From positions 1-38,491 of the IMG/VR virus record IMGVR_UViG_3300037132_000362: a stretch of DNA of 38,491 nucleotides. The stretch is one strand, 5' to 3'. This DNA is from a virus. Position 1 is the first letter of the stretch; the number at the start of each line of letters is the position of its first letter. Below the pieces are notes generated by a model that made no database searches, had not been told where the DNA came from, and saw only the letters and a list, made by a program, of their open reading frames with translations. The position numbers and the translations under genes were made by a program. Shown here piece after piece: positions 4,301 through 32,146 of the stretch.

Positions 4301-4462
4301 CCAGAAACCAATCCGGGAATAATCGAGTTTACTGTTGCCGGTGTTTTGGAGCATGTAATAGGGACTACGCTTGCCGGTGGCCCAGACAAAGCCATAGGAG
4401 AGCGGTATCGGAGTTCCTGTCGCGGAGGAAGCGGAGCTGGTCTGCGTGGTGGAGGCATTCAT
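1331..4462 (-). CDS. Tail tip / central fibre protein (J-like)
   Basis: A 1043-residue protein starting at an ATG that overlaps the preceding stop (ATGA, 4459-4462). The N-terminal ~590 residues look like a baseplate hub or tip attachment region (repeated YSRIGFWKLG-like and LWINDMLAW-like segments, Trp/Tyr rich). Residues about 650-945 contain three diverged copies of a ~100-residue beta module recognisable by the ends LTLNYEDNDGSWWPG, HLNYKDGEGNVWHG and HLQFGDGSGGIWSG. Residues about 947-1035 form a bacterial Ig-like (BIG2-type) domain (VTWSVDGVAGG, GLYSSPNAAGTHTITAT), closed by a Gly-rich tail. The place after M- and L-like genes matches lambda gpJ, though lambda K and I equivalents are absent. 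The repeats and Ig domain probably project outward to bind the cell surface (inference). Confidence 0.75.
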   Translation of the reverse strand: MNASTTQTSSASSATGTPIPLSYGFVWATGKRSPYYMLQNTGNSKLDYSRIGFWKLGHGEWDRCIELWINDMLAWNGSTKPSTSGWVGDLPNGGAPYNWIDGLDAQHVAPGAPSDLLSGPFQFNFHRGTDSPLTGTLAPTSFGPDQGLDNLWPLFPTAINPLPWSRIAYYSIFRKQTILLPPNRQQGDASNFTDIAPVGLWASRRCRLFDDQGNQTGYAFTTNPAWHIVDSVLFRRLMPDYGLDLNIGPDQLTAAVQNRFDWGPLYSAAQYFDEFLANGRRRFEGNYSFSSQTTLQAILEQMLLCCRSYLTEYAGKIGLHCDMPRASVFTFSRAHILPGSWNADDQTLNKTANRFIANHRDILVPACSQIASITCTFGGNPVVTTVDPHPFEANDQIAIGATNTPYDQNWTVYSVPDIIDVGLPTEVDPSTFTLISQGSNFPESVGAVGCCGLLYSRFKERAPEFWHKANMLARGCVGLGIPRLRNKVKQSLDFATTTYDQASRLTCYERDRLLGLDQTPYITPACVKFRTSFFARDAAGNLAAAIEAGDHVTLDTTTNFQYAGEYEVLEPLTKVVPTVSASGAGGQIALKPNENSGEIELILGPYSEAVMYDTSDPTQAGWPSVPGSDPGNSATFTTIPLAAGQFSFFTGTASSGGFFQLPSTGYSPANNFSWAGPAGYGGGTWSGHMATIKLCAVNSTFGLTLNYEDNDGSWWPGQLNYACATWLSSDVPTFDGTLNWLELTLAGGEKIIFGRGVVADGTTITLPAGYTSAQAFAVAYPHDGVPTGGHNAHWVGAYVDSSLIVHLNYKDGEGNVWHGNAAVMVFAWKNNISTWTTQTLGGATWAQCPLTGGLIFGVGCALGVADGATLDLPAAAGDGSTLQAIVGTSGWDYSASTGEAHGIYASYLDASNVVHLQFGDGSGGIWSGAADVFALYLSPSSAVEVVVSVLPSSTSMNTGTQQQFSAIVANNANQSVTWSVDGVAGGSVTVGTIDSSGLYSSPNAAGTHTITATSVAAPTYSGSATVAVSDGGEGGGGWTVNGS

Positions 4463-5622
4463 ATCGTGCGCCTCCGGTTGATCACGTTGAACGCAGTGTT
4501 GGCCGCGGCCTCGCCAAAGTTCTTTTCGTAGTTATTTTGCTCCACCATGATGCGATTCGGCGATTGGCAGGTTTGCAAGCTATAACTGCATTCCGTCGAG
4601 CCGGTGGCGCCGCACCTGCGGCCTCCCCATTGCAGTTGGCAAGTCTCCGAGTACTGCTCAAGCGGCGTATCATCCTGCGCGGGATTCAGGAGCTGCGTGC
4701 CTTTCAGCTTCACCGTGTCCACGCCAATGTCCGCAACGGTCAGAGTGCCGTGGATTTCGAGCCACGAGGCCTGGGCATCGGCTTGCCAGAGGCGATAAAT
4801 GAAGAGCGCGCCCTCGAGCGCGGAGCGGCGCATGATCTTCTCAAAGTCGCGTGAAAGCGTGTCGCCGCCGAGGTTTTGCAGCACGAAGGAACCCGTGTCG
4901 GTTTGCAGCGAGCGATAGGTTTTGAACTCCGGAACCTCCAGAATCCAAGGAAGATATGGGCCTCCGTAAATAGTTGAAATGAGTGGGCTGGGACTGGCAA
5001 TAAGGATACCTGCCGGCACGGTGAAATAGATCGCCACAATCGGAACAAGATTAATAGCTAAACTGCCTTCGAAAGAGATATTCCCCCCGCCTCCTTCTGC
5101 ATTCCAAGTCGGGGCAGATTCCCCCATTAGGTAGATTTCCGCATTCGGCACAGTGGGCGCGCCTATCGCACCTTTTACATCTGCTGCCCATAAGGAGCCG
5201 CTGAAAGTGGAAGTGTTGACTTCTCCAGGAAAACTTATTTCCGTCCAACCGCCGTCATCCACCACGCTGCCTAACAAACCACAAAACAAGCCTGTTATCA
5301 CAGCACTCGCGGGAATTGATGGAAAGGATGATATAGAGCTTGACCCCGCTCCCCTATAGATATGAGCGCCATCAGAAAAGCTACCCGCAAAGGCGATGCG
5401 GAGACCATAAGAATAAGCCACGGACTCACTCCCAGCAAGAGATCTCGGAGGCGTTGGAACCGGGTATAAAGCAGAATTCGTGATGACATTGGGGGCTGAG
5501 CAACTGCGATCAGACCAGTAGTAGGCGTTGCCGTTGGTGTCCAGCACGTCGAGCAGACTCACCGGCGCAATGCCGGTGTGCGCGCCGCCAACCGCCTTCA
5601 GCGATAGAGGATAAGCGATCAT
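4459..5622 (-). CDS. Tail tip protein, lambda gpL / DUF2163-like, cysteine-cluster C-terminus
   Basis: A 387-residue protein whose ATG (5620-5622) overlaps a TGA. Residues about 225-300 (VPEFKTYRSLQTDTGSFVLQ and LSRDFEKIMRRSALEGALFIYRLW) match the style of the DUF2163/BR0599 minor tail family. The C-terminal ~70 residues carry four cysteines spaced C-x8-C-x7-C-x6-C (CQLQWGGRRCGATG, ECSYSLQTC). In lambda gpL the homologous C-terminal cysteines hold an iron-sulfur cluster; here the residues are visible but the cluster is inferred. A roughly 130-residue Gly/Ser-rich insertion (about residues 60-220) separates the N-terminal strand from the conserved part and is unusual for the family. It lies between the M-like and J-like genes, the lambda gene order. 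Confidence 0.75.
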   Translation of the reverse strand: MIAYPLSLKAVGGAHTGIAPVSLLDVLDTNGNAYYWSDRSCSAPNVITNSALYPVPTPPRSLAGSESVAYSYGLRIAFAGSFSDGAHIYRGAGSSSISSFPSIPASAVITGLFCGLLGSVVDDGGWTEISFPGEVNTSTFSGSLWAADVKGAIGAPTVPNAEIYLMGESAPTWNAEGGGGNISFEGSLAINLVPIVAIYFTVPAGILIASPSPLISTIYGGPYLPWILEVPEFKTYRSLQTDTGSFVLQNLGGDTLSRDFEKIMRRSALEGALFIYRLWQADAQASWLEIHGTLTVADIGVDTVKLKGTQLLNPAQDDTPLEQYSETCQLQWGGRRCGATGSTECSYSLQTCQSPNRIMVEQNNYEKNFGEAAANTAFNVINRRRTI

Positions 5623-5666
5623 ACCGGGGCCCCCGACATGCGATTTTTGTATGCTGGGGTGGTCAT
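5619..5666 (-). CDS. 15-codon coupling mini-ORF
   Basis: A 15-residue reading frame, MTTPAYKNRMSGAPV, fills the 40-bp gap between two tail genes. Its ATG overlaps the stop of the M-like gene (ATGA) and its TGA overlaps the ATG of the L-like gene, so it could couple their translation. The peptide and DNA closely match the first 15 codons of the gene starting at 10437 (MTTPASKDRSPGAPE), including the GC-rich GGGGGCCCCGG stretch. This suggests a copied gene start rather than chance. Whether it is translated cannot be judged from sequence. Confidence 0.35.
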   Translation of the reverse strand: MTTPAYKNRMSGAPV

Positions 5667-6853
5667 CGCATCACCTCCAGCGCATACCAGCTCACCGCCG
5701 TGCCTTGCGGAATGCCGGGCGTTGTGTCAGAGAGGCCTGCGCCAACCATCGTTGGCGCGCCTGTATCGCCCCCGGTGGCCGCGAAGGTCATCTGCGTGCC
5801 GGGGCCGTTCAGCGTTGCCGTAATGCCGTAAGCAGCATGGGTGACGTTGATGGCGTGCAGCAGATTGGTGAGCGTGTCGGTCGTTCCCGATGTGCCGAGT
5901 GTGATCGAATATGCGGTGACGCCATCCCCCTGCACGCCGGCCAGCGTGCCTCCCAGAACATCGGCGGCCGCCGCAACAGTCAGCGTCCCGGCAAGTGATG
6001 CAAGCACCGGGGCCGTATGGACGACTGGTGGAATCGTGTAGAAGGTGCCGTCGCAGTTGATCTGCACGCGATGAATGTCGAGAGGCATCGACTGATAGGT
6101 GGCCACGATCTGCGGACCAATGTCCGTGGCGTTCCAGAGGCAGATGGTCTCCTGGAGCACACCATCGATATACAGATCGACGTTGCCGAACTCCGGGCCT
6201 TTCAGCATGTAGAGCCTGAAGCCATAGCCGCGATATTCGTAGCAGGCCCAGTCGCCGGCCACCGTGGCAGGATTGTCCATCGTCACATAAGCTGTGCCCA
6301 CCGTCGCCAGGCTCACATGCTCCGTGCCCTGGCTGCCAGTGACGGATTCTCGCGCCGTCTGTACCCAGGCATTCGTGGAGCTGTTGGTGGCCAGCTTCTG
6401 ATCGCCGAAATCGTTGATGATGAAGAAGGCGATCGCATCGTCGGTCCAGTCGGAGGGATATTCGACCATTGCCTGCTGCGAGATCTCTTCGAAGGTGACG
6501 TTCTGCACATCCCACATTCCGTTGCCAGTCTCAACCGGAATCACCTCGGTGGTGAAGCGGCCAACATAATGGCGGCCGCCGCCGTCCTGGTCGATGATGG
6601 TGAAGAGGCCATCTTCGTATTGTTCCCAGTACCTCTTTAACTCCCGCACACATGGCCAACTGCGGCCCAGCCAACTGAAATTGAAGACATGGCCGGTGTT
6701 TTGCGTCTCACGCGTCCAGGGCGTGCCTCCCACGGCCTTCTTGTTCAGCTTGGTGCTGACCCGCTTGCGCGTGAAGCCATAGTTTGGAGTCATCGAATCT
6801 TCGATGGTCTCATCCCAGGTGGTCGTCGGATTGAGAATGTCGGTGGCCGGCAT
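5663..6853 (-). CDS. Minor tail protein, M/Dit-like, with appended modules
   Basis: A 396-residue protein immediately after the tape measure gene (its ATG at 6853 overlaps the tape-measure stop), where lambda has gene M. Residues about 25-130 (YGFTRKRVSTKLNKKAVGG, VRELKRYWEQYEDGLFTIID) resemble the beta-sandwich of minor/distal tail proteins. Residues about 135-275 look like a jelly-roll, lectin-like module (NVDLYIDGVLQETICLWNA, PLDIHRVQIN). Residues 281-381 are the module shared with the tail tube gene at 11340-12668. I infer a distal tail ring subunit decorated with two carbohydrate-binding or structural domains. The core assignment relies mostly on gene order. Confidence 0.6.
   Translation of the reverse strand: MPATDILNPTTTWDETIEDSMTPNYGFTRKRVSTKLNKKAVGGTPWTRETQNTGHVFNFSWLGRSWPCVRELKRYWEQYEDGLFTIIDQDGGGRHYVGRFTTEVIPVETGNGMWDVQNVTFEEISQQAMVEYPSDWTDDAIAFFIINDFGDQKLATNSSTNAWVQTARESVTGSQGTEHVSLATVGTAYVTMDNPATVAGDWACYEYRGYGFRLYMLKGPEFGNVDLYIDGVLQETICLWNATDIGPQIVATYQSMPLDIHRVQINCDGTFYTIPPVVHTAPVLASLAGTLTVAAAADVLGGTLAGVQGDGVTAYSITLGTSGTTDTLTNLLHAINVTHAAYGITATLNGPGTQMTFAATGGDTGAPTMVGAGLSDTTPGIPQGTAVSWYALEVMR
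5711..6013 (-). repeat. Copy 1 of a 101-residue module shared by two virion proteins
   Basis: Encodes residues 281-381 of the M/Dit-like protein. It aligns end to end, with about a dozen differences by eye, with residues 111-212 of the tail tube protein (12033-12338). DNA differences are mostly at third codon positions. The segment GITATLNGPGTQMTFAAT, preceded by a helix-like LLHAINVTHAAY, is reminiscent of flagellin hook IN-type domains; that likeness is my inference. Confidence 0.9.
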
Positions 6854-9800
6854 CAGTTCATCCCTCCACCTGAGTTCTCGGCAAAGCTGTCGTTCAGCGC
6901 CGCGCGAATGTGATGCTTGTTGTCTTGCAGGAACCGCATACTGCTTTTGGCATCGATGGCGTGGAGGTGCAGGTGAATGTCACCCATTGACTGGCTTTGC
7001 ACGGGCATCTTGCCGCTTGGTCCAGACGCGGTACCGCGCGCCTGGCGCACCTGCTCAGCCTGATCCGCGGGCACAATCATTTCGCCCTGATGCAGCAGCG
7101 CCGGGCCTGTCTCCGGCACATAATCGGTGCCCACGGCGTAAGAAGCCTTCGACTCGCTATACTGGCTGCGGCCGGCCTTCTCCTCTTTGGTGAATTTACC
7201 TTCGGCTTCTTTGATCTCTGGAGTGATGTGATCGTTGCGATAGCGGCGGCCGCTTGGTCCCATCGCGCTGGTCGCCTTGAAGGCTTCGCTTTGCAGGCTC
7301 TCCATGTCGGAGTAGGCGGCAAGATAGTCCATCGAGCCGTTATGGAAGGCATCCGTGGTGTTTGCAATGCGCGGGCGCACGGTTTTTTCGTCGTATTCCT
7401 TGGCCTTGCCGCCCGAGCCGAGATAGCCGATCACCGCGCCGGCGACCGCGCCCACGGCCATGCCGATCGGACCAAAGGCAGCGCCCATTTCCGCGCCGCT
7501 GGCCGCGCCTTTCATCGCTCCGCCAGCTCCACCGCTGCCTTCATGCGCCGCATAGACGCCTATCGCGCCTTGCGCCGTACTACCTGCTTGGGCCATCCCT
7601 TTGCCGCCGCCGCCGCCAGAGCCTGTACCACCAGCGCCAGCCGTGGAGGATCCAGACCCTGATCCGCCCGCGTTGCCATCGTCGCCATCGTCGCCTGCAC
7701 CCTTTCCACCGCTCGCAAATTTAGCGCCTATTTGCTTACCAAGGCCGTATCCTTGCTTTGCCATACCGACGCCGCCTGAAATCTTGCTGGAGACGCCAGA
7801 TCCAGAGCCGGGAGTTTCCGCGCCACCGCCGGCGCCCGCGCCGCCGTCAGCCGTGGATCCGCCACCGAAGCCGCCAGAGCCGCCTCCAACGCCAGGCGCA
7901 AGCAGTGATGTGCTTCCGCCACTGCCATAGATTGAGCCGTCTGCCGTGGATCCGCCGCCAGCAAAGCCGCCTGGAACGCCCGCGCCGCCTGCTGTAGTGT
8001 TTCCGCCAGCACCCGCGCCCGGAGCGCCCGCGCCGCCACCGCTGATACTGGCAGAGCCAACGTGGATCACCGCGGATGCGACAGAGATGGAGCTATGCGC
8101 CACAGTGTTAGACCCATGCGCGCCGGCGTGCTCCATCTTCTCTTCTGTAGATTGCTTTTTACCAAAGATCAAGCTGCCGAGAAAGCCTTTCGCGCCGGTG
8201 GGCTGTCCATCCGCGCCGCCCTGGGCGCGCTGCTGAAAGTGCTGCCAAAGCCCCGCCGCCGCATTGCCCGCGGCCTTGTCGCCCAGCTCCTTGAGATACT
8301 TCTTGGGGTCTTCCATCCCCTTGAAGAACGACGTAAACTCCCCGGCCATCTTCTTGCGCGCTTCAGTCGAGGCCTCCACCATCTCCGCATTCTTTTCCTG
8401 CTCGGCGGCGACGGCGCGGCGGTTGAAATCCTCCTGCGAAATCTTCTGTTCGTCGAGTTCCTGCTGATAGTGCTGCAAGCGCTCGTCATATTCAGCCTGG
8501 ATCGACGCGGTCTTTTGCTTCTCCGCGCTCAGTGAGCGCACCCGCGCCGCTTCCTCGATGTGCGCGGTCTCATCCGCGGCGGTGCGCGCTTGCTCAGCCT
8601 TGCGTTGTGCGGCCTCTTGATCTTCGCGCTGCACCTGGGCGTTGGTTTCTTTTTGGGCGGCGGCCACGCGCGCGGCGCGGTTGGCCGGATCGAGATTCGG
8701 ATCGGCGTTGATGTCGGCCACGCGGTTTGCGCCTTCGCCGCGCGTGCGCGCCGTCCCGGTCAGGCCAGCCAGAGACGCCTGGCGCACGATGCGATCGGTC
8801 TCGCGGCCTTCATCCTCCAGGTGGCGCAGCTCCTCGTTGTGAAAGCGCGTGTGTACATCGGCGACGGCCTGGGCGCTGGTGATGCCGCGCTGTTTGAGAT
8901 CCTCGATCGCAGCCGCTTCGCGCTGGTGATAGAGATCGGATCCGCGCAGGCCGCTCTCGATCGCTTCCTCGTGAATCCTCGCCAGCTCTCGCGCATCCGA
9001 TTTTTCTGAACCGGCGTGGGTTTTCTGTTGATTGGCCAATTCGGCGTCGGCCTTGATTCTGGCGATGGCAACTTCGCGCGCCTCTTTGTCAGCCCCAGCG
9101 TTAGGCGCCACTGGATTGCCTAGAATTCGATCCTGTTCATTGCCATAAAAACGCTCTTCATGAGCGCGATCCGTAGCCTCGGCGACGGTGGCATCACGCT
9201 TCGTTTTTCCCGAAAGACCAACCTTTCCGGCGTATTTTAGATCAAGATCACTGAGCCGCTGCTCGTGAGCCTGCTCGGCCTCGCGCTGATGCTGGAGTTT
9301 ATCCAGATTTCTCTGAGCATCAACCAACGGCTTTGATGCCTCACCTACGGCGTGGCTTCGCTGCCATTCAAAACCGGCATAACCAAAGGCGCTGCGCCAG
9401 CCTAAAGTGTTGCCATTCTGAGCTTGTTGCATCTCGGCAGTGTATTTTTTGACCGCCTCAGTCGCTTCGTCGATGCGCAGCCGAGTGGTCTCAATGCTGT
9501 GTGTGTTGCCGAAATCCTCCGTTTTGGCTTTTGCGACTTCTTCCTCGTAATCACGCACAGCCTTGGGAAGCTGTGTCAGCGCGTCCCATAGCTTCTCCGC
9601 ACCGTGAATCAACGCAGTAAAGACCATGGCGCCGATCTGGATTGCGCCCAGGCCGATCATTGCGCCGCCGATTGCGCCAATCGCGCCCATCACTGCTGGA
9701 CTCTTCGAGATCACAGACTGCATGGCGCGCGGAATGCGCACGCCAAACTCCTCGGTGAGCAGCCGCACCTTCTCATGCGCACTGAGCGCACCCGCGCCCA

Positions 9801-9948
9801 TGTCGTTCATCCCCGCGCGCACCTTGGTTCCGGAGGATGCGCCGGCCGCGCCCACCTGGTTCAGCTTCTGCTCAACGCCGCCCAGCACCTGGCCGCTGGT
9901 GTTATCGACGACGTTGATCGAGATCTGAACCGCGCTGGTTTCTACCAT
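6853..9948 (-). CDS. Tape measure protein
   Basis: 1031 residues, by far the longest helical protein of the tail operon. The ATG at 9948 follows GGAG in a small hairpin. Residues about 80-115 form a hydrophobic Ala/Gly/Ile segment (AVMGAIGAIGGAMIGLGAIQ). Residues about 125-560 are charged, heptad-like coiled coil rich in Glu, Lys, Arg and Ala. Residues about 620-800 are a long Gly/Ala/Ser-rich low-complexity stretch. A second hydrophobic segment (FGPIGMAVGAVAGAVIGYLG) lies near 835. The end carries the common tape-measure signature GTDYVPETGPALLHQGEMIV. Length sets tail length; 1031 residues imply a tail of roughly 150 nm by the usual helix scaling (inference). Confidence 0.9.
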   Translation of the reverse strand: MVETSAVQISINVVDNTSGQVLGGVEQKLNQVGAAGASSGTKVRAGMNDMGAGALSAHEKVRLLTEEFGVRIPRAMQSVISKSPAVMGAIGAIGGAMIGLGAIQIGAMVFTALIHGAEKLWDALTQLPKAVRDYEEEVAKAKTEDFGNTHSIETTRLRIDEATEAVKKYTAEMQQAQNGNTLGWRSAFGYAGFEWQRSHAVGEASKPLVDAQRNLDKLQHQREAEQAHEQRLSDLDLKYAGKVGLSGKTKRDATVAEATDRAHEERFYGNEQDRILGNPVAPNAGADKEAREVAIARIKADAELANQQKTHAGSEKSDARELARIHEEAIESGLRGSDLYHQREAAAIEDLKQRGITSAQAVADVHTRFHNEELRHLEDEGRETDRIVRQASLAGLTGTARTRGEGANRVADINADPNLDPANRAARVAAAQKETNAQVQREDQEAAQRKAEQARTAADETAHIEEAARVRSLSAEKQKTASIQAEYDERLQHYQQELDEQKISQEDFNRRAVAAEQEKNAEMVEASTEARKKMAGEFTSFFKGMEDPKKYLKELGDKAAGNAAAGLWQHFQQRAQGGADGQPTGAKGFLGSLIFGKKQSTEEKMEHAGAHGSNTVAHSSISVASAVIHVGSASISGGGAGAPGAGAGGNTTAGGAGVPGGFAGGGSTADGSIYGSGGSTSLLAPGVGGGSGGFGGGSTADGGAGAGGGAETPGSGSGVSSKISGGVGMAKQGYGLGKQIGAKFASGGKGAGDDGDDGNAGGSGSGSSTAGAGGTGSGGGGGKGMAQAGSTAQGAIGVYAAHEGSGGAGGAMKGAASGAEMGAAFGPIGMAVGAVAGAVIGYLGSGGKAKEYDEKTVRPRIANTTDAFHNGSMDYLAAYSDMESLQSEAFKATSAMGPSGRRYRNDHITPEIKEAEGKFTKEEKAGRSQYSESKASYAVGTDYVPETGPALLHQGEMIVPADQAEQVRQARGTASGPSGKMPVQSQSMGDIHLHLHAIDAKSSMRFLQDNKHHIRAALNDSFAENSGGGMN

Positions 9949-9949
9949 G

Positions 9950-9964
9950 GTTTGCTCCGCAAAC
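9950..9964 (-). promoter_or_regulatory. Shine-Dalgarno hairpin of the tape measure gene
   Basis: On the minus strand GTTTGC-GGA-GCAAAC is a perfect 6-bp stem with the core of the GGAG ribosome binding site in the loop, ending two bases before the ATG. The same 20 bp, including the start codon, recurs at 24631-24650. It could tune initiation; function is inferred. Confidence 0.5.
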
Positions 9965-9998
9965 AGCCTTCAGCTATCAGCTCACAGCTATCAGTTTT
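9964..9998 (-). repeat. Heptamer array, five units
   Basis: Five CAGCTAT-type units in exact 7-bp register on the plus strand (AGCTGA-type on the coding strand). The TGA of the zinc-ribbon gene (9991-9993) lies inside the array, and the array touches the tape-measure leader hairpin. Confidence 0.85.
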
Positions 9999-10437
9999 TC
10001 TTTCGTTGAAACTTTGTGCCACAGCTGGGACACTCGGTTCCAAAGCGATTCTGCTGGCGCGCGCCACAGGCGCTGCACGCCGGGTGACGGCCCTGGAAAG
10101 CGGCGCGGGCGCGATGGAGAGCAAGTAGCCCCTCCGCCTCGCAGCTTGCCATCTCCGCAAGCGCAAGCGGTATGCCCGCATCTCGCAGCTCGTCAAGATG
10201 GAGCAGGTACTCGGCGAAGCGGTAATAGCCCCAGGCGAGAGTGCGCGGCGGAATCTGGCGCTCCATGCGCTCGACGGTCTCCGGGCTCGCGCCCTCGGCG
10301 TCGCGCCGAACACGGCTGCGCATGAAGTCGCTCTCGAAGATCTCTTCGAGGGCCATGCGCACGCCTTCCGTATCTTTCCAGACATCGAATACCTCCGGGG
10401 CCCCCGGCGAGCGATCTTTGCTCGCTGGGGTGGTCAT
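9991..10437 (-). CDS. Zinc-ribbon tail protein between chaperone and tape measure
   Basis: 148 residues from the ATG at 10437, which overlaps the preceding stop as ATGA. The frame stays open farther upstream, but that part has no coding character. The N-terminal 100 residues are helical and charged (GVRMALEEIFESDFMRSRVRRDAEG). The end carries a classic zinc ribbon, CSACG and CPSCG, 12 residues apart. In lambda-like tails the slot before the tape measure holds the frameshift chaperone GT; here a separately initiated second product may play that role. The exact function is unknown; zinc binding is inferred from the two CxxC pairs. Its first 15 codons resemble the mini-ORF at 5619-5666. Confidence 0.75.
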   Translation of the reverse strand: MTTPASKDRSPGAPEVFDVWKDTEGVRMALEEIFESDFMRSRVRRDAEGASPETVERMERQIPPRTLAWGYYRFAEYLLHLDELRDAGIPLALAEMASCEAEGLLALHRARAAFQGRHPACSACGARQQNRFGTECPSCGTKFQRKKN

Positions 10438-11168
10438 CCTTCCTCTTCGACTTTGGGCGCGGCCGGGGCAAACAAAAGATCGATAGCCGCAACCTTGTGG
10501 TAGGTGTCCATGAACTCGACAATGGCCTCGCGATCGGGCGCGGCGCCGTCCACCGTGTAGCCTTCGACGCTGACGACCAGCTCGTCGTACAGCTCGGCGA
10601 GCGTGGCCTGTGCGCCCAGCCATTGCGTCTTGCCGTTGCGGCTTCCGCCGATCACGCGTGAGCGGCTGCTCTCGCGCGAGAGGCGGCGCTGCTGGTCTGC
10701 CGAGGGTGTCTTGAAGTTGTGGCGCAGGTTGTGAAATTTGCGCATGATGCCAGAGTCATCCGCGCCCCAGGTGGCGTCGAGGTAAACCGATTCCTGGCCG
10801 AGAGTGATCCCCTCGTCGTCGTTGGCATCGCTGACTGAGACGGATATGACGGCGTTGGCCGCGCCCAGGCGGTGCGAGAGCGGAAGCAGAGACTTCCAGC
10901 TCTCGACCTGGTCGATGCTGGTTTTGCCGTCGGGCAGCGCATAGCCGCTGGCGGTGAGCAGGCATTGATCGACCAGGTCAAGCCGCGCGGCGCTGGAGTC
11001 GAAGCTGTCCAGCCGCTTGCCGCCCTGGTTTTCGCTGGTGGAGACAATGCCCTCGAAGTAGCGCAGCCACGTCTTTTTGGTGATGCGCACAAGGGTGAGC
11101 AGATAGCGCTTGCCGCGATCCTCAATGGCGATGATGCGCGGCTTGTTGAGTTCGATCGATGCAGACAT
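10434..11168 (-). CDS. Putative tail assembly chaperone
   Basis: I place the start at the ATG 11166-11168 (protein begins MSASIELNK), because AAGGGAAG lies just upstream; an upstream ATG at 11183 has no such site. The 244-residue product is mixed alpha/beta with no recognised motif. The call comes from position between tail tube and tape measure, where siphophages encode the chaperone that coats the tape measure. I looked for a slippery heptamer near the end that would fuse it to the next frame and found none; the ATGA overlap suggests coupled reinitiation instead. Confidence 0.5.
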   Translation of the reverse strand: MSASIELNKPRIIAIEDRGKRYLLTLVRITKKTWLRYFEGIVSTSENQGGKRLDSFDSSAARLDLVDQCLLTASGYALPDGKTSIDQVESWKSLLPLSHRLGAANAVISVSVSDANDDEGITLGQESVYLDATWGADDSGIMRKFHNLRHNFKTPSADQQRRLSRESSRSRVIGGSRNGKTQWLGAQATLAELYDELVVSVEGYTVDGAAPDREAIVEFMDTYHKVAAIDLLFAPAAPKVEEEG

Positions 11169-11207
11169 GGTTCTTCCCTTCATTTTTGGTTTGGATTTTG
11201 TACAGCG

Positions 11208-11224
11208 AAGGGTGAGGAACCCTT
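11208..11224 (-). other. Small hairpin in leader of the chaperone-position gene
   Basis: AAGGGT and ACCCTT flank a five-base loop. It is one of three hairpins in the 171-bp gap between the tube gene and the putative chaperone gene. Confidence 0.4.
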
Positions 11225-11233
11225 TTGAAGATT

Positions 11234-11261
11234 GAGGTTTCAGGCAGCCGGGAGAAACCTC
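11234..11261 (-). other. Inverted repeat, 8-bp perfect stem
   Basis: GAGGTTTC and GAAACCTC are separated by 12 bases, between the tail-tube terminator and the chaperone-position gene. It could be an RNA structure or a protein-binding site; nothing decides between them. Confidence 0.4.
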
Positions 11262-11294
11262 TACCGCTCCGGAGTCGTGGCGCGGGGCTTGCAG

Positions 11295-11326
11295 AAAAAG
11301 CGGGCGCGCCGCAAGAAAGCGCGCCC
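11295..11326 (-). terminator. Rho-independent terminator after the tail tube gene
   Basis: On the minus strand GGGCGCGC and GCGCGCCC form an 8-bp GC stem followed, after two bases, by TTTTT. It starts 14 bases past the tube stop codon. It would reduce readthrough so that the tube, needed in many copies, is made in excess of downstream tail genes (inference). Confidence 0.65.
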
Positions 11327-11339
11327 TGGAGAAAAACCG

Positions 11340-12668
11340 TTAGCTTTCCGGCGCGGCCAGATAGCCGGCCACATTGTTGGTAACGCTGAGCGAGATCGGA
11401 GGAACGCCAGCGGCCTGGTAGTTGGTGGTCTCGTCGTTCTCGACTTGCCAGACGGTCATATCGCCGTCGAAGCCGATCTTGGTGGTCTTCATGTGCATCT
11501 GCGGAACCGAGATCGTCATTTGCGCCGAGGCACCGGAGTTCACCGCGAGCTCGTAATCGCAGGCGGAATCGTTGGTGAAGCGGGCGTAGACATCGTCCGT
11601 ATCCTTCGCCGCAAATGTGGTGGTGAGCGAGAACTTGGGGTTGCCCTTGCGCACGAAGAGGCCATAGAGGCCGCCGCCAGGCGCGCGGTGATCGACATCT
11701 TGATTTTCCAGCTTCAGTGTCGTGCTCATGTGACGGCCGATAAAGCTGGCGGTTTCTCCCACCGGGCCGAACATCAGCGCCGCATCAGACCCGAGCAGAT
11801 AACTCTCGGTGGGCGCGGCGGGAAGCGTGCCGGTCAGCGTGCCGAGAATCTGCATCCCGCTGCCGATCATACCGATCTCGATCATGATGGCGCCGATGTC
11901 CGAGATGGTGAGCGTCAGATCGTTGACGCACATATCCGGGCACTTGTAATGCACGTCCTCGGTGTCTTCCATGTAGATCGTCGTCGGCACGGCCGTGCGC
12001 GTCGATTCATCGAAAGTGAAGGCGTGCGTGTAGATGCCGGGCGCCAGCGCGTCGGCAAGGCCTGTGCCCACCATCGTCGGAGCGCCTGTATCTCCAGACG
12101 TGGCGGCAAAGGTCATCTGCGTTCCAGGGCCATTGAGTGTGGCCGTAATGCCATAGGCCGCATGGGTCACATTGATCGCGTGCAGCAGATGTGTCAGCGT
12201 ATCGGTTGTGCCTGACGTGCCGAGAGTGATGCTATAGGCCGTGCTGCCATCTCCCTGGACTCCAGCGAGCGTGCCGGTGAGGATGTCGGTGGCATTGGCG
12301 ACCGCGAGTGTCCCCGCGAGCGATGCCAGCACAGGTGCGGACTCGGCTGTAGTGACCGTGTCGGTGCCCATCAGGAAAGCCAGAGCCCATGCCACGATCC
12401 ACGGGGAAGCTTCGCACTTGAAGCCGCTCAAAGCCGTCTCGTACTTCGTGATCTGGCCGTTGGTGGCGAAGGCTGTGCCCTTGCCGGCGTAGGCAATATC
12501 ACTGCGCCGCGTGATCTTGCGCTCCAAAACGGCCGCGCCGTCGAAACGCTGGCGGTAAGTGAGAGCCGCGTCGATCAAGGCTGTGTTCCAGGCTGCCTGG
12601 GAATTCACGCTGAGCATCAGGTTTCGAGCTGTCTTCCATTGCGAAAGAAAGTTATAAGGTCCGGGCAT
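11340..12668 (-). CDS. Major tail (tube) protein with an inserted module
   Basis: 442 residues from the ATG at 12668, which overlaps the preceding TGA (TGATG). A GTG one codon earlier is a possible start. Residues 1-110 (MPGPYNFLSQWKTARNLML, SGFKCEASPWIVAWALAFLM) and residues 213-442 (LTLTISDIGAIMIEIGMIGS, ETASFIGRHMSTTLKLENQ) together read as one tail-tube-like beta protein, split by the 102-residue module at 111-212 that also occurs in the M/Dit-like protein. The tube assignment comes from gene position before the chaperone and tape measure, a strong terminator directly after it, and beta-rich composition. An inserted domain would project from the tube surface as in decorated siphophage tails (inference). 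Confidence 0.65.
   Translation of the reverse strand: MPGPYNFLSQWKTARNLMLSVNSQAAWNTALIDAALTYRQRFDGAAVLERKITRRSDIAYAGKGTAFATNGQITKYETALSGFKCEASPWIVAWALAFLMGTDTVTTAESAPVLASLAGTLAVANATDILTGTLAGVQGDGSTAYSITLGTSGTTDTLTHLLHAINVTHAAYGITATLNGPGTQMTFAATSGDTGAPTMVGTGLADALAPGIYTHAFTFDESTRTAVPTTIYMEDTEDVHYKCPDMCVNDLTLTISDIGAIMIEIGMIGSGMQILGTLTGTLPAAPTESYLLGSDAALMFGPVGETASFIGRHMSTTLKLENQDVDHRAPGGGLYGLFVRKGNPKFSLTTTFAAKDTDDVYARFTNDSACDYELAVNSGASAQMTISVPQMHMKTTKIGFDGDMTVWQVENDETTNYQAAGVPPISLSVTNNVAGYLAAPES
12033..12338 (-). repeat. Copy 2 of the shared virion-protein module
   Basis: Encodes residues 111-212 of the tube protein. Boundaries match copy 1 (5711-6013) from APVLASLAGT to PGI. Flanking protein sequence is unrelated between the two genes, so the module moved as a unit. 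Confidence 0.9.
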
Positions 12669-13042
12669 CACTTCACCTCTGGGTCAGCGGCGTTTGCCGC
12701 GGGTTGTGTTGCTTGAAAAACAGGTTGCGCAGGCGCATCCGTGTGGCTAATGGCCGGTGAGATTACGCGTGCTGCCCTCTGGCTACCGGCTTTTACCGGA
12801 GCGGCCGGAGCTGTGGGCGTGGAAAGAATTGCTGGAGCGATCTCAAAGATCGGCTGGCCGTTGAATAGTTTGATCGAGAGCACGCGCCGCCATTCGCTGG
12901 CGAGAACGCGCACAGGCTTGCCGGGTGTGAAGATGTAGCAGAAGTGTCCATTGGCGATGCGCACCTGGCCACCGGCGCCGGCGAAGGCCAGACCCGCGGC
13001 GGAGAGCTGCACCTGAACGAAATCGGAAGGGCCGTTGCTCAT
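12668..13042 (-). CDS. Unknown small connector/tail gene
   Basis: 124 residues; the start overlaps the stop of the gp37-like gene (ATGA, 13039-13042). The N-terminal 70 residues are beta-rich with HFCYIFTPGKPVRVLASEW. The C-terminal 50 residues are an Ala/Pro/Gln-rich disordered tail. I recognise no family. Position between the head-tail joining genes and the tail tube suggests a joining or tail-completion role, which is only context. Confidence 0.7.
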   Translation of the reverse strand: MSNGPSDFVQVQLSAAGLAFAGAGGQVRIANGHFCYIFTPGKPVRVLASEWRRVLSIKLFNGQPIFEIAPAILSTPTAPAAPVKAGSQRAARVISPAISHTDAPAQPVFQATQPAANAADPEVK

Positions 13043-19593: not shown

Positions 19594-21063
19594 TCAGGCC
19601 TCCTGTTGTGGCGTGGCCGTGTCAACAATCTCTTTCACGCGCTTGGCGAAGACGCCCTTGGCGTCACCCTGCAGCTGCGCGAAGAGCTTGTCGTATTGCT
19701 CCATCTCCTCGCGCATCTGAGCCTCGGCCTGCCGCTCGGCAAAGGTGGCCGTCGAGCGGTCCGCTATCTTGATCTGGGGAGCGGAGCCGGCCACGGGAAC
19801 CAGAATGTCATCCGGATTCTGGCCGTTTTCACCACCGGCAAGAGGTACATCATAGCGCTGGGTCACATATCCGACTCTCAACTTGAGGCCCATACCCTGC
19901 AAGCCCATGTCAACGCTGAGGCGCTCAGCGAGATCCTCGCCCGTCTTGGTTTCAATGTCCCAGATGGGCATGGGCGCGTTGGGTCCGTAGTTCCACAGCA
20001 CCAGCGGCCGGATGAGCTGATCGTTGACCACAGACATCAAAGCCTTGCAGAGTGAGACGGAACGCGTATCGAAGGTGTCAGCGTGGGTTCTGCCCTGCGC
20101 CTGAGAGCCTTTACCGTCTTCCGAGCCGAAGCTGGTCAAGGTCTCGCCCTGAATGCGGCGCACGATCGAGAGCTGCATCGTCTTGAAGAATTCCTGATAA
20201 ACCTTGGGATCCTGGGCGCGGGCGATCTTGAGCAGCTCCGGCTCGAACTCAAAGCCTTTGGGCACCGCGACCGCGGTGTTGTCAATCAACGACTGAGCAA
20301 TGTCCACAGCCTGTTTGCGTTCCGAAGCGGAATCGGCGTCGTTGTAATGCACCACGGCCGTGCCGGGGCCTTTCTCAGCGAACTGCATCCACAGCCGCTG
20401 GATGTTGCGCTTGAACCAGCTCGGCCAGAAGACGTTCTTGAGCAGGGGGCGCCCCATCCGGTTGCGGCTCCGCTTGCGATAGCTGAAGATCAGGAACTTC
20501 TGCTCGGGCATGGGCGTGCCTTCGCTAGCCCAGGGATTGTCCAGAAGCTGGAGCGGGTTCACCTGCGGATAGAAGCGGTTGCCGAAGAGGAATAGCTCCT
20601 GCGGACAGTCGCTGATGTCCACCAGCTCCGCCTGGCCGGCCGAGGTGTCAAAGATCATCTCTTGCACGCTGAAGCCGTAGCCGGCGGCGTCGAGCACGCA
20701 ATCGAGCACCTCGTCGAAGTTCACAGTCTTGAGCTGGGCCTCGATGAACTCTTTCACATCCACGGCCAGCGAATCCTTGTCGTTGGCCGGCAGCACGGAG
20801 GTTGCGCGCTCCATGACTGAAAGTTTCAAGCCGTCAAGGGCATTGCCCACATCCTCGTCTTTGTCTTCCAGTTCGCGATAGTAGGCCATCGTCTGCGGCA
20901 GGTTGTAGGCCATGCTGCTGTAGATGTCGGAGGGGTTGCGCGTGCCTCCAAAAGCCAGCGTGTTGCGATAGAGCGAGAGCTGCTGCATGTAAAGGCTGCT
21001 GCTGCTGAGCAGCTCGCCTTTGGGCGGCAGCGGCGGTACGAGAGAAGTCTTATCGTCTGCCAT
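19594..21063 (-). CDS. Portal protein (DUF935, Mu gp29-like)
   Basis: 489 residues; the ATG overlaps the TerL stop (TGATG). DUF935 features are clear: YYRELEDKDEDVGNALDGLK near residue 60, then CVLDAAGYGFSVQEMIFD near 125, KFLIFSYRKRSRNRMGRPLL near 190, FKRNIQRLWMQFAEKGPGT near 220, IVRRIQGETLTSFGSE near 300. It forms the dodecameric channel at the head vertex for DNA entry and exit. Length is normal for the family. It is followed at once by the gpF-like gene. Confidence 0.93.
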   Translation of the reverse strand: MADDKTSLVPPLPPKGELLSSSSLYMQQLSLYRNTLAFGGTRNPSDIYSSMAYNLPQTMAYYRELEDKDEDVGNALDGLKLSVMERATSVLPANDKDSLAVDVKEFIEAQLKTVNFDEVLDCVLDAAGYGFSVQEMIFDTSAGQAELVDISDCPQELFLFGNRFYPQVNPLQLLDNPWASEGTPMPEQKFLIFSYRKRSRNRMGRPLLKNVFWPSWFKRNIQRLWMQFAEKGPGTAVVHYNDADSASERKQAVDIAQSLIDNTAVAVPKGFEFEPELLKIARAQDPKVYQEFFKTMQLSIVRRIQGETLTSFGSEDGKGSQAQGRTHADTFDTRSVSLCKALMSVVNDQLIRPLVLWNYGPNAPMPIWDIETKTGEDLAERLSVDMGLQGMGLKLRVGYVTQRYDVPLAGGENGQNPDDILVPVAGSAPQIKIADRSTATFAERQAEAQMREEMEQYDKLFAQLQGDAKGVFAKRVKEIVDTATPQQEA

Positions 21064-29286: not shown

Positions 29287-31203
29287 ATGGCCTCCGCGCA
29301 ATTGGCTCTTACGTTGCCGCTTCCCCAGCCAGTCTCTGGACCGCAGCGGGTACTTCTCACCAGCCCCGAGGCCGAGGCGCAGGCCTCACAACGGCTCGCT
29401 GTGATCGAGATGATCCAGAACTATCAGCGCGAACCGGAGCGCTTTGGCCGGCTGACCCTGCTTGATGGCTCGCCGGTCAGCAGCTTCAGCCGCATGGTGG
29501 AATTTGCCGCCGAAAGCAATCACGTCTCTCGCTGCACCGTCTTCAACTGGCTACGCAAGAACAAGGCCGGCGGTAAAGCCGCGCTGGCCGACAAGCAGCG
29601 CAAAGATCGTGGCACAAGCCGCTGGTTTGAAGCCTATCCGCAAGCGAAGAACTTCGCGGCATATCTCAGCCTGGGCGAATCCGGCTTGAGCGGTCTCGAT
29701 CCCTACCAAAACTTCGTGGCCCAGTCCGTCAGCTACATCCACTCCGAGCTGATCAGGCAATCAAAAGCCCTGGGCATTCCGCAAGATGATCTGCCGTCGT
29801 ATGGGACCGTGAGGAGATTTCTCGACCAGATTCCGGCATCAATGCGCATCTACGCGCAGAAGGGCAAGCGCGCCTATCGCGATCTGGTCAGCCCGCATTT
29901 GACCCGCGCTGTCACCGACGTGTATGCCAATCAGATCCTCGTCGGCGATCACGCCTACCACGATGTGATGCTTCGAAATGATTGCTTCTCGAATGTCGAG
30001 TGGGGCACCAAAATTCGCATCCGCATCACCGGCTTCGACGATTACCGCAGTCGCAAGATGATCGGCATGAGCTGGTGCTGGGAGGGCAGCAATCGCTCGC
30101 TCTGCGCGGCGATGATTCTGCCCTTCCGCACATACGGCCCGCCTGAAAGCGTTTTGTTAGATAACGGTAAAGACATGCAGAAGTTTGCCAAGGGCGCCGC
30201 CCATTATATGGGTGAGTCAACCGTGGCGCCGGAGCATTGGCGGCAGGCTGAAATCGAAACTCTCGAAGCGACGGGCTTTTTGGCGCGCACCGGCACGGCG
30301 GTGCAGTTCTGCCAGCCCTATCACGGCCAAGCCAAGAACATCGAGCGCTTCTGGGGCACGCTCCATTCAAACTGGGACAAGCTCTGGCCAACCTACACCA
30401 GCGGCAGCCCGTTCACGCGGCCGCAGATCACTACCGAGGCGATGGAGCGGCATGACAAGCTGATGAAGCGCGGCCGCGCCGATGAATCGGACCTGCCGAC
30501 GGCCAGCGCCTTTATTCAGGCCACCCGCGCCTGGATCGAAGAGTACAACGAAACGCCGCATATGGGCCTCGGCAACGACGGCGGGACGCCCAACGAGGTT
30601 TTCAAGTCCTGTTTCAATCCGAAACAGAAGCCGCCGATCGACGCGGCCACGCTGACCCTGCTGATGGGCGAGCGCACAGTGCGCACCGTGCGCAAATGCG
30701 TGGTGCATCTCGACAAAAAGCGTTATGAGCCGGTGAACCGCGAGGGCTGGCAGGCGCTGCACGATCTGGACGGCTCGGAGATCCTGCTGGCCTACGAACC
30801 CGCCGCGCCCGACGTGGCCACGGCGCTCACCCTCGACGGAAACTTCCTTTGCGCGCTGCAAACGGAGGAGCTGGCCCTCTACGCGCCCAGCGATCCGCAC
30901 ACCAAGGAGCTGATTTCGAATTCGATGGCCACGCGACGCGGCCTGGAAAAGCACACGCGCGAAAATCTGCGTGCCATCTCGATCACCGCCCGCGCGCAAG
31001 GCGCGCTCAGCCCGCTGGAGTCGATTGCGACGCGCCTGCAGTTGCCCGCAAATACCGGCCTCGCGGACCTCATCACGCAACGCACACCTCGGCCCTCCCC
31101 CAACACAGACGACACACCAAGCCGCCCGGCCACACCGGCCGAGGCGGCACGGCAAGGATTGAAACTCTTGGAGAAAAACCAGCATGATAGACAGAACGGA
31201 TAA
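29287..31203 (+). CDS. A: Transposase A (MuA-like DDE recombinase)
   Basis: 638 residues. The N-terminal HTH region reads FSRMVEFAAESNHVSRCTVF then NWLRKNKAGG. The catalytic triad is visible as Asp221 in LVGDHAYHD, Asp292 in VLLDNGKD and Glu353 in KNIERFWGTLH, with D-70-D-60-E spacing close to MuA. The retroviral integrase-type core ends around 440 (YNETPHMGLGNDGGTPNEVF), followed by a MuA-like beta-barrel (KKRYEPVNREGWQALHDLDG). The C-terminal ~100 residues are basic/disordered and would contact B. It carries out replicative transposition and integration. Confidence 0.95.
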   Translation: MASAQLALTLPLPQPVSGPQRVLLTSPEAEAQASQRLAVIEMIQNYQREPERFGRLTLLDGSPVSSFSRMVEFAAESNHVSRCTVFNWLRKNKAGGKAALADKQRKDRGTSRWFEAYPQAKNFAAYLSLGESGLSGLDPYQNFVAQSVSYIHSELIRQSKALGIPQDDLPSYGTVRRFLDQIPASMRIYAQKGKRAYRDLVSPHLTRAVTDVYANQILVGDHAYHDVMLRNDCFSNVEWGTKIRIRITGFDDYRSRKMIGMSWCWEGSNRSLCAAMILPFRTYGPPESVLLDNGKDMQKFAKGAAHYMGESTVAPEHWRQAEIETLEATGFLARTGTAVQFCQPYHGQAKNIERFWGTLHSNWDKLWPTYTSGSPFTRPQITTEAMERHDKLMKRGRADESDLPTASAFIQATRAWIEEYNETPHMGLGNDGGTPNEVFKSCFNPKQKPPIDAATLTLLMGERTVRTVRKCVVHLDKKRYEPVNREGWQALHDLDGSEILLAYEPAAPDVATALTLDGNFLCALQTEELALYAPSDPHTKELISNSMATRRGLEKHTRENLRAISITARAQGALSPLESIATRLQLPANTGLADLITQRTPRPSPNTDDTPSRPATPAEAARQGLKLLEKNQHDRQNG

Positions 31204-32146
31204 CACGTCGCGCGCACAGCAGCTCGCAACCGGCTTCCTGATTCGCAGTGGGATGTCTCCGGTGGACTTTGCGCGGCGGATTGGCTATAACTCATCCACA
31301 CTTCAGCAGTTCATGAACGGCCACTATTCGAAGATCGCCAACTCCTCGCGCATTGAGACGGCGATTCTCGACTTCATCGCCCAGAGCCCGTTGGAGCCGG
31401 AGAGCGAATACTGCGGCCACATCTACGAGACCGACGCGGTGCGCGTGATGCGCGGCGTCTTCGAGCGCCTGCTGGAGCGGCCGCAAGTTTACATGGTCTA
31501 TGCGCCGCCGGGAAGCGGCAAGACTGACGTTGCGCGCCACTTGATCGCCGAGCACAATGCGCGGCGCCAGCCGGATGAGAAGAGCTACATCTTCCGCGTC
31601 TATTGTAGGGCTAAAATTTGCCCGCGCGATTTGATGAAGCGCGTGGCCACCGCCTGCGGCGTGCAGGCTGACACGGCCATCGACCGCGCCATTCACAACC
31701 TGCGCTGGGACTTCAAAGATGCGCGCGTGGTGCTCTACTTCGACGAGGCGCAGCACCTGAGTATCGAGTGTTTTGAAACGGTCCGCGAGCTGCTCGACGA
31801 AACCCCGCGCTTCTCGCTCTGCTTCGCCGGCTCGCACGAGTTGGACCGCATCTTCGCGCGCTTTGCCGGCACGCTGGAGCAACTGGAGCGGCGCATCAGC
31901 GACAAGGTGACCTTGCCATCGCTCTCCGCCGACGAGGCGGAAGGCATCCTGCGCAGCGAGCTGCCCGATCTCCCGCTCAACCAGTCCTTTATCCGCCAGC
32001 AGGTTGAGCTGGCCACCATCTCTGTGCGCGTGGAGCGCAAAACGCAACGCTATATCAGTATCGGCAGAATCATGGCCGCCGTCCGCGAGATCCGCGCAGG
32101 GCTGCCCGCGCCGGCGGATGAAAAGAAAGTCGAGGTTGAGGCATGA
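31184..32146 (+). CDS. B: Target-selection ATPase B (MuB-like AAA+)
   Basis: 320 residues, overlapping A by 20 bases. An N-terminal HTH (MSPVDFARRIGYNSSTLQQF) precedes Walker A APPGSGKT (about residues 107-114), Walker B VVLYFDEAQH (about 183-192), and sensor-like LCFAGSHELDRIF. Arg-rich FAGTLEQLERRISDKV may include the arginine finger. MuB binds DNA as filaments, activates A and steers it away from the phage. The C-terminus KKVEVEA recurs at the end of the next gene. Confidence 0.93.
   Translation: MIDRTDNTSRAQQLATGFLIRSGMSPVDFARRIGYNSSTLQQFMNGHYSKIANSSRIETAILDFIAQSPLEPESEYCGHIYETDAVRVMRGVFERLLERPQVYMVYAPPGSGKTDVARHLIAEHNARRQPDEKSYIFRVYCRAKICPRDLMKRVATACGVQADTAIDRAIHNLRWDFKDARVVLYFDEAQHLSIECFETVRELLDETPRFSLCFAGSHELDRIFARFAGTLEQLERRISDKVTLPSLSADEAEGILRSELPDLPLNQSFIRQQVELATISVRVERKTQRYISIGRIMAAVREIRAGLPAPADEKKVEVEA

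Follow-up and report, generated by a model that had tools for sequence, protein, structure and literature searches.

What is one and the same domain doing in two tail proteins of a phage that are otherwise unrelated, and where did it come from? The question is raised by a 38,491-base uncultivated virus record (IMG/VR IMGVR_UViG_3300037132_000362), here called the window, whose own sequences are denoted W. Extra domains on tail tubes have long been known, without a clear function or origin. Here a donor can be identified, an outer-domain repeat of host-group flagellin that occurs in two forms in two different virion proteins; with the donor identifiable and with close relatives that lack the module as natural controls, the function of a tail decoration becomes directly testable. 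The case also ties the adhesion of phages to a variability in flagellin outer domains that has had no explanation.

The module and its two carriers

The minus strand of the window carries a siphophage tail cassette with genes for tube, candidate chaperone, candidate tape measure, tip, L-like and J-like proteins (Table 1). The Mu-type portal, together with an AAA ATPase encoded beside a 638-aa HTH protein, indicates that the virus is probably a Mu-like transposable siphophage; the transposase domain of the 638-aa protein is weakly supported, by its HTH match. Three minor features of the cassette were recorded. A strong terminator-like stem (9 pairs and a T-run) lies directly after the tube gene, at 11302-11326 on the minus strand. 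The minus-strand frame 9991-10623 overlaps the chaperone candidate in a way that resembles programmed-frameshift tail chaperones (G/GT type). The J-like protein has a weak Big_2-like match near its C-terminus (PF02368, E 0.0013, below the cut-off).

Table 1. Features of the window that bear on the module and its setting
Feature	Position	Strand	Basis
J-like central tail protein, 1043 aa	1331-4462	-	PHROG 31, E 8.5e-15
L-like tip protein, Cys-rich C-terminus	4459-5622	-	sequence and gene order; homologues in related prophages
Dit/M-like tip protein, 396 aa: N-terminal domain, CBM6/35-like domain, module in last hairpin	5663-6853	-	model; gene directly after tape measure gene
CBM6/35-like domain, last strand (residues 386-396)	5666-5698	-	fold match of model
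Module copy in tip protein (residues 280-381)	5711-6016	-	insert in last hairpin of CBM-like domain; missing from 42/45 related proteins
CBM6/35-like domain, main part (residues 134-267)	6053-6454	-	3nqh, Z 13.3, rmsd 2.6; CBM35 2w1w, Z 11.5
Tape measure protein candidate, 1031 aa	6853-9948	-	between tube and tip genes; length; homologues in related phages and prophages
Tail assembly chaperone candidate	10434-11183	-	between tube and tape measure; homologues at same place
Tail tube protein, 443 aa, two-domain T5/P74-26 type with inserted module	11340-12671	-	Pfam PF18906; model versus 8ed0
Module copy in tail tube protein (residues 111-213)	12033-12341	-	insert between 'MGTDTV' and 'YTHAFTFDE'; missing from 59/66 related tubes
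Mu-type portal	19594-21063	-	Portal_Mu, E 9.7e-66
Probable Mu-type transposase (638 aa) and AAA ATPase (320 aa) pair	29287-32146	+	HTH_28, E 3e-4, below cut-off; AAA_22, E 5.9e-18

The original prediction held that a single module stands in two otherwise unrelated virion proteins with about a dozen differences between the copies, that it splits the tube fold, and that the copies are old and under selection; our results agree with it on each of these points. Locally aligned with BLOSUM62, the tube and tip modules score 438, against a mean of 48.5 (sd 7.7, maximum 80) for 300 shuffled sequences, while the parts of the two proteins outside the module do not align to each other in a pairwise comparison. 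The copies, of about 102 residues, are 86% identical in amino acids and 75% in nucleotides; 40 of the 102 aligned codons are identical, 49 differ silently and 13 carry replacements. Positions 5711-12338 take in both copies and everything between them. With dN at 0.097 and dS at about 1.3, synonymous divergence is near saturation, so the pair is not a fresh duplication.

Two simpler explanations were rejected. Recent duplication within the genome is ruled out by the near-saturated silent sites, at which, moreover, the W tip copy is no nearer to the W tube copy than to the copies in other tubes. An artefact of composition is ruled out by a real score far above that of shuffled sequences; also against it, the profile matches examined in two sets of about 400 genomes (described below) are flagellin, FliD or phage proteins.

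The tube protein passes Pfam PF18906 (Phage_tube_2; E 2.5e-8, 34.3 bits, cut-off 27), its residues 85-419 matching profile positions 61-265 with room for an insert of about 100 residues. Its model (pLDDT 75) matches the P74-26 tube 8ed0 over 309 aligned residues (Z 26.2, rmsd 3.5) and the T5 tube with Z 23.8; a two-domain fold is predicted for residues 10-434, and single tube domains match either half of it, as two tandem tube folds. In the model the module sits between two strands of domain 1, and this portion has low model confidence (pLDDT 41-55). Folding did without the alignments that contain loose module fragments (A4, A5), whose rows were misplaced.

P74-26, whose tube matches the predicted fold, has a smooth tube without extra domains and a lumen of about 45 A (PMC10034513), whereas T5 has an Ig-like domain instead. 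A domain of about 100 residues per subunit would be too big for such a lumen, which passes the tape measure and the DNA, and this argues for display on the exterior. The natural reading of the predicted fold, and of the absence of the module in homologues, is that it faces outwards. There would then be three copies per ring and, by a rough scaling from the length of the tape measure protein, something of the order of a hundred per tail, a very rough figure.

The tip protein is modeled with a pLDDT of 84, and CBM6/35 structures match it with Z of 10-13.3 over about residues 134-396. The module region of this model consists of strands with a helix at 328-338, which is atypical for Ig domains. 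For the N-terminal Dit ring domain there was no family match, and the fold-search lists were occupied by CBM. Evolved Dit proteins of lactococcal and other siphophages are likewise tip proteins encoded after the tape measure gene that carry CBM-like domains; the W protein differs in that its CBM-like domain is interrupted by a flagellin-type module, and it is called Dit/M-like without an N-terminal Dit match. Fold searches with the tube and tip models listed no flagellin or FliD chain for the module, the lists being filled by tube and CBM matches, and so this result does not count against a flagellar fold.

A removable insert

Relatives were taken from IMG/VR, giving 66 distinct tubes and 45 distinct tip proteins for comparison. 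In these, both the loop of the tube ('MGTDTV..PYTHTFTFDE') and the hairpin of the tip protein ('..CDGTKN..TG..VSWYALEVMR') are short as a rule. A large insert is found in seven of the 66 tubes, and in all seven it is the module, in the same loop; three of the 45 tip proteins have it, with one copy in W, one in L006 and three in tandem in L007. The segment is not integral to either protein in all homologues, since 59 tubes and 42 tip proteins do without it. The module is a removable insert that occupies the same tube loop across distant tube clades.

Presence in one protein does not entail presence in the other. In L022 and contig G325:C12 the tube has the module and the tip protein lacks it, in L006 and L007 it is the other way round, and both copies are seen only in W among relatives with a complete tip gene (tip state was scored leaving out L001, L002, L003, L030 and L031, where that gene is incomplete). 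In L007 the tip protein (9001-10680, the same protein as L143 6876-8555) reaches 559 aa with its three tandem flagellin-type modules. Only one other large insert was found at either loop in the 66 tubes and 45 tip proteins, an unrelated 31-residue Pro/Gly-rich linker at the module's hairpin in the tip protein of L099 (15361-16293), from which it follows that this loop tolerates other inserts.

On a tube tree computed without module residues, presence of the module requires four gain or loss changes, at least three of them forced by well-supported branches. Comparison of W with the clade II tubes gives an identity of about 31% for the flanks and 77-78% for the modules; within clade II, the flanks are 81% and the module 74% identical. 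Since the clade II module is less conserved than its flanks, the contrast between W and clade II is explained by horizontal transfer and not by a slowly evolving module. For the pair L001-L002, dS is 0.45 in the module versus 0.92 in the flanks. The module has been gained or lost several times and has moved between tube clades. It is also under purifying selection: for W and L030, dN/dS is about 0.09, alike for module and tube core.

Flagellar repeats and the host group

Scanning genomes with the module alignment led to a phage contig in the Acidobacteriaceae MAG bog_96 and to a flagellin in the MAG palsa_418. This flagellin (L144 6822-9854) has a Flagellin_N domain (E 6e-28) and several module-like repeats, and adjoins motA/motB. 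Matches were present in 31 of 398 Acidobacteriaceae genomes, where every examined non-phage match is flagellin or FliD (an identity confirmed by Pfam for representatives), and in only 6 of 396 genomes of a phylum-wide sample, all of them again flagellin or FliD. The strongest match in a cellular protein is to L149, a flagellin that is complete at 958 aa and comes from bog_96, the same MAG that contains the phage contig with three modules. Its repeat at residues 405-500 scores 109 bits (E 2.9e-33) and is 55-63% identical to every phage module. The tandem-repeat junction 'NLTDTTPGIDGTL' is common to L149 and the L007 tip protein, and a linker 'VVN.APV' precedes the repeat in L149, L006 and L007.

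In a tree of 59 repeats the L006 and L007 tip modules cluster with repeats of L149 (87/82), the tube-type modules and the W tip copy make up a single group (93/97) and the FliD repeats form a clade of their own (100/100); many other forks are without resolution. The module had originally been described as possibly flagellin-IN-like, which stands as far as homology to the outer repeats of Acidobacteriaceae flagellins is concerned and does not stand as membership of the Pfam family. Another L149 repeat, at residues 323-377, passes PF07196 Flagellin_IN with 32.1 bits, and none of the phage modules passes its cut-off of 22.7 bits (best E 0.36). Neither carrier, tube or tip protein, matches Flagellin_N or Flagellin_C. 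Judged by sequence, the two carriers are not flagellins, and their module is homologous over its full length to the outer-domain repeats of Acidobacteriaceae flagellins and, more distantly, to those of FliD, the flagellar cap.

The likeness to these FliC and FliD repeats extends to the whole module, to the tandem arrangement and to the common inter-repeat junction; the difference is that the phage module stands below the PF07196 cut-off in virion proteins without flagellin D0/D1. Other searches with the module found no sequence match among carbohydrate-binding or Ig families and chance matches only among solved structures searched by sequence. In 50,697 phage records there was no tblastn match for the module, the tube or the flagellin repeats, and comparison with known phages gave no PHROG above noise. 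We infer that capture ran from flagellin to phage, as the tandem repeats are widespread in flagellins and rare in phages.

The host group is indicated by module-less relatives that are integrated as prophages in chromosomal contigs of Acidobacteriaceae (6.3, 4.1 and 1.7 Mb), where homologues of the tube, tape measure, tip, L-like and J-like genes follow in order; they were found through the CBM-like part of the tip protein, whose last 274 residues served as the query. Because related prophages reside in their chromosomes, the Acidobacteriaceae (soil Acidobacteria) are probably both the host group and the donor of the module. Flagellins are present in all eight genomes tested. In genomes with module-less prophages the main flagellins have about 330-430 aa and give no match to the profile of the phage modules. 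The 958-aa flagellin belongs to the bin of the triple-module phage, whose tip protein is found alongside the flagellin most similar to it. In bin G325, which contains the module-bearing contig G325:C12, the flagellins have no module match, so the phage module and the flagellin of the bin do not always go together. Phage contigs that lack host flanks may be misbinned. A further observation concerns L144, where the frame over 6822-10375 is broken before Flagellin_C and Flagellin_N and Flagellin_C fall in separate ORFs; the split may be genuine or an artefact of assembly.

A probable role of the module on the tail

The reading that we favor, with a probability of roughly 0.6, is that a host flagellar outer-domain repeat was captured as a multivalent exterior decoration of tube and tip that serves as an accessory adhesin. 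The adhesin-like decoration of tail and tip in the original prediction is kept here as a probable reading. A group of probably Mu-like Acidobacteriaceae siphophages would have taken up the filament repeat and grafted it in frame into surface hairpin loops, one in tube domain 1 and one in the CBM-like domain of the tip protein. Pointing outwards, with three copies on each ring of the tube and further copies at the tip, it would act with low affinity and through multivalency. Its likely targets would be the outer domains of the host's own flagella, or else anything to which the flagellum itself adheres, and the CBM-like domain and the J-like protein would continue to bind the primary receptor. 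The pattern among relatives suggests a detachable decoration, swapped between phages, that may aid sticking to the host or its surroundings.

Decoration of tails is already known. Tail tubes can be studded with Ig-like domains, as in lambda gpV, T5 pb6, SPP1 gp17.1* and YSD1_22, and there too an optional domain on a conserved tube fold is repeated along the tail, is promiscuous between virion proteins and has a proposed accessory role in adsorption (PMC9022992, PMC7385642). The W domain differs from these in being a flagellin outer repeat that is not identified as Ig-like, and in its two sites, one a loop within domain 1 of the tube and the other in a tip protein. We found no report of a flagellin-type domain or flagellin-derived module on a phage tail tube or tip in the open-licence literature searched.

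In some bacteria flagellin outer domains have been described as adhesive, and on the filament they can form pairs with one another (PMC8931119). A more specific proposal is that the tail docks like-with-like on the host flagellum, the tube copies lying along the filament and the tip copy guiding the tail to the cell; we consider this doubtful. It is possible, and we hold it tentatively, that the module is a decoration that binds carbohydrate or matrix in a general way, comparable to Ig-like tail domains or Hoc, its flagellin ancestry being incidental, and that flagella and tails alike stick to soil or peat polysaccharide. The embedding of the tip module in a CBM6/35-like domain fits this, as do the proposed help of tail-tube Ig-like domains in adsorption (PMC9022992) and the adhesiveness described for flagellin outer domains (PMC8931119), but the domain family has no known ligand and no carbohydrate-binding family matches the module.

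A ligand-free role as a structural spacer or stabilizer of tube and hub seems unlikely. The precedent is domain 2 of YSD1, which is inserted in the tube fold and girds and stabilizes the ring (PMC7385642). Most relatives, however, have no module in tubes that are up to 86% identical outside it, the module also occurs in the CBM-like domain of the tip protein, where the same bracing role is impossible, and in L007 it is triplicated in tandem. That a selfish or neutral cassette recombines into permissive loops and is tolerated there is highly improbable, for while patchy distribution, horizontal exchange and tolerant loops would suit it, dN/dS is as low as that of the tube core (about 0.09), no border repeat exceeds 6 bases at either insert of the window, and a homologue of a host domain takes up the module, leaving no space for a mobility gene.
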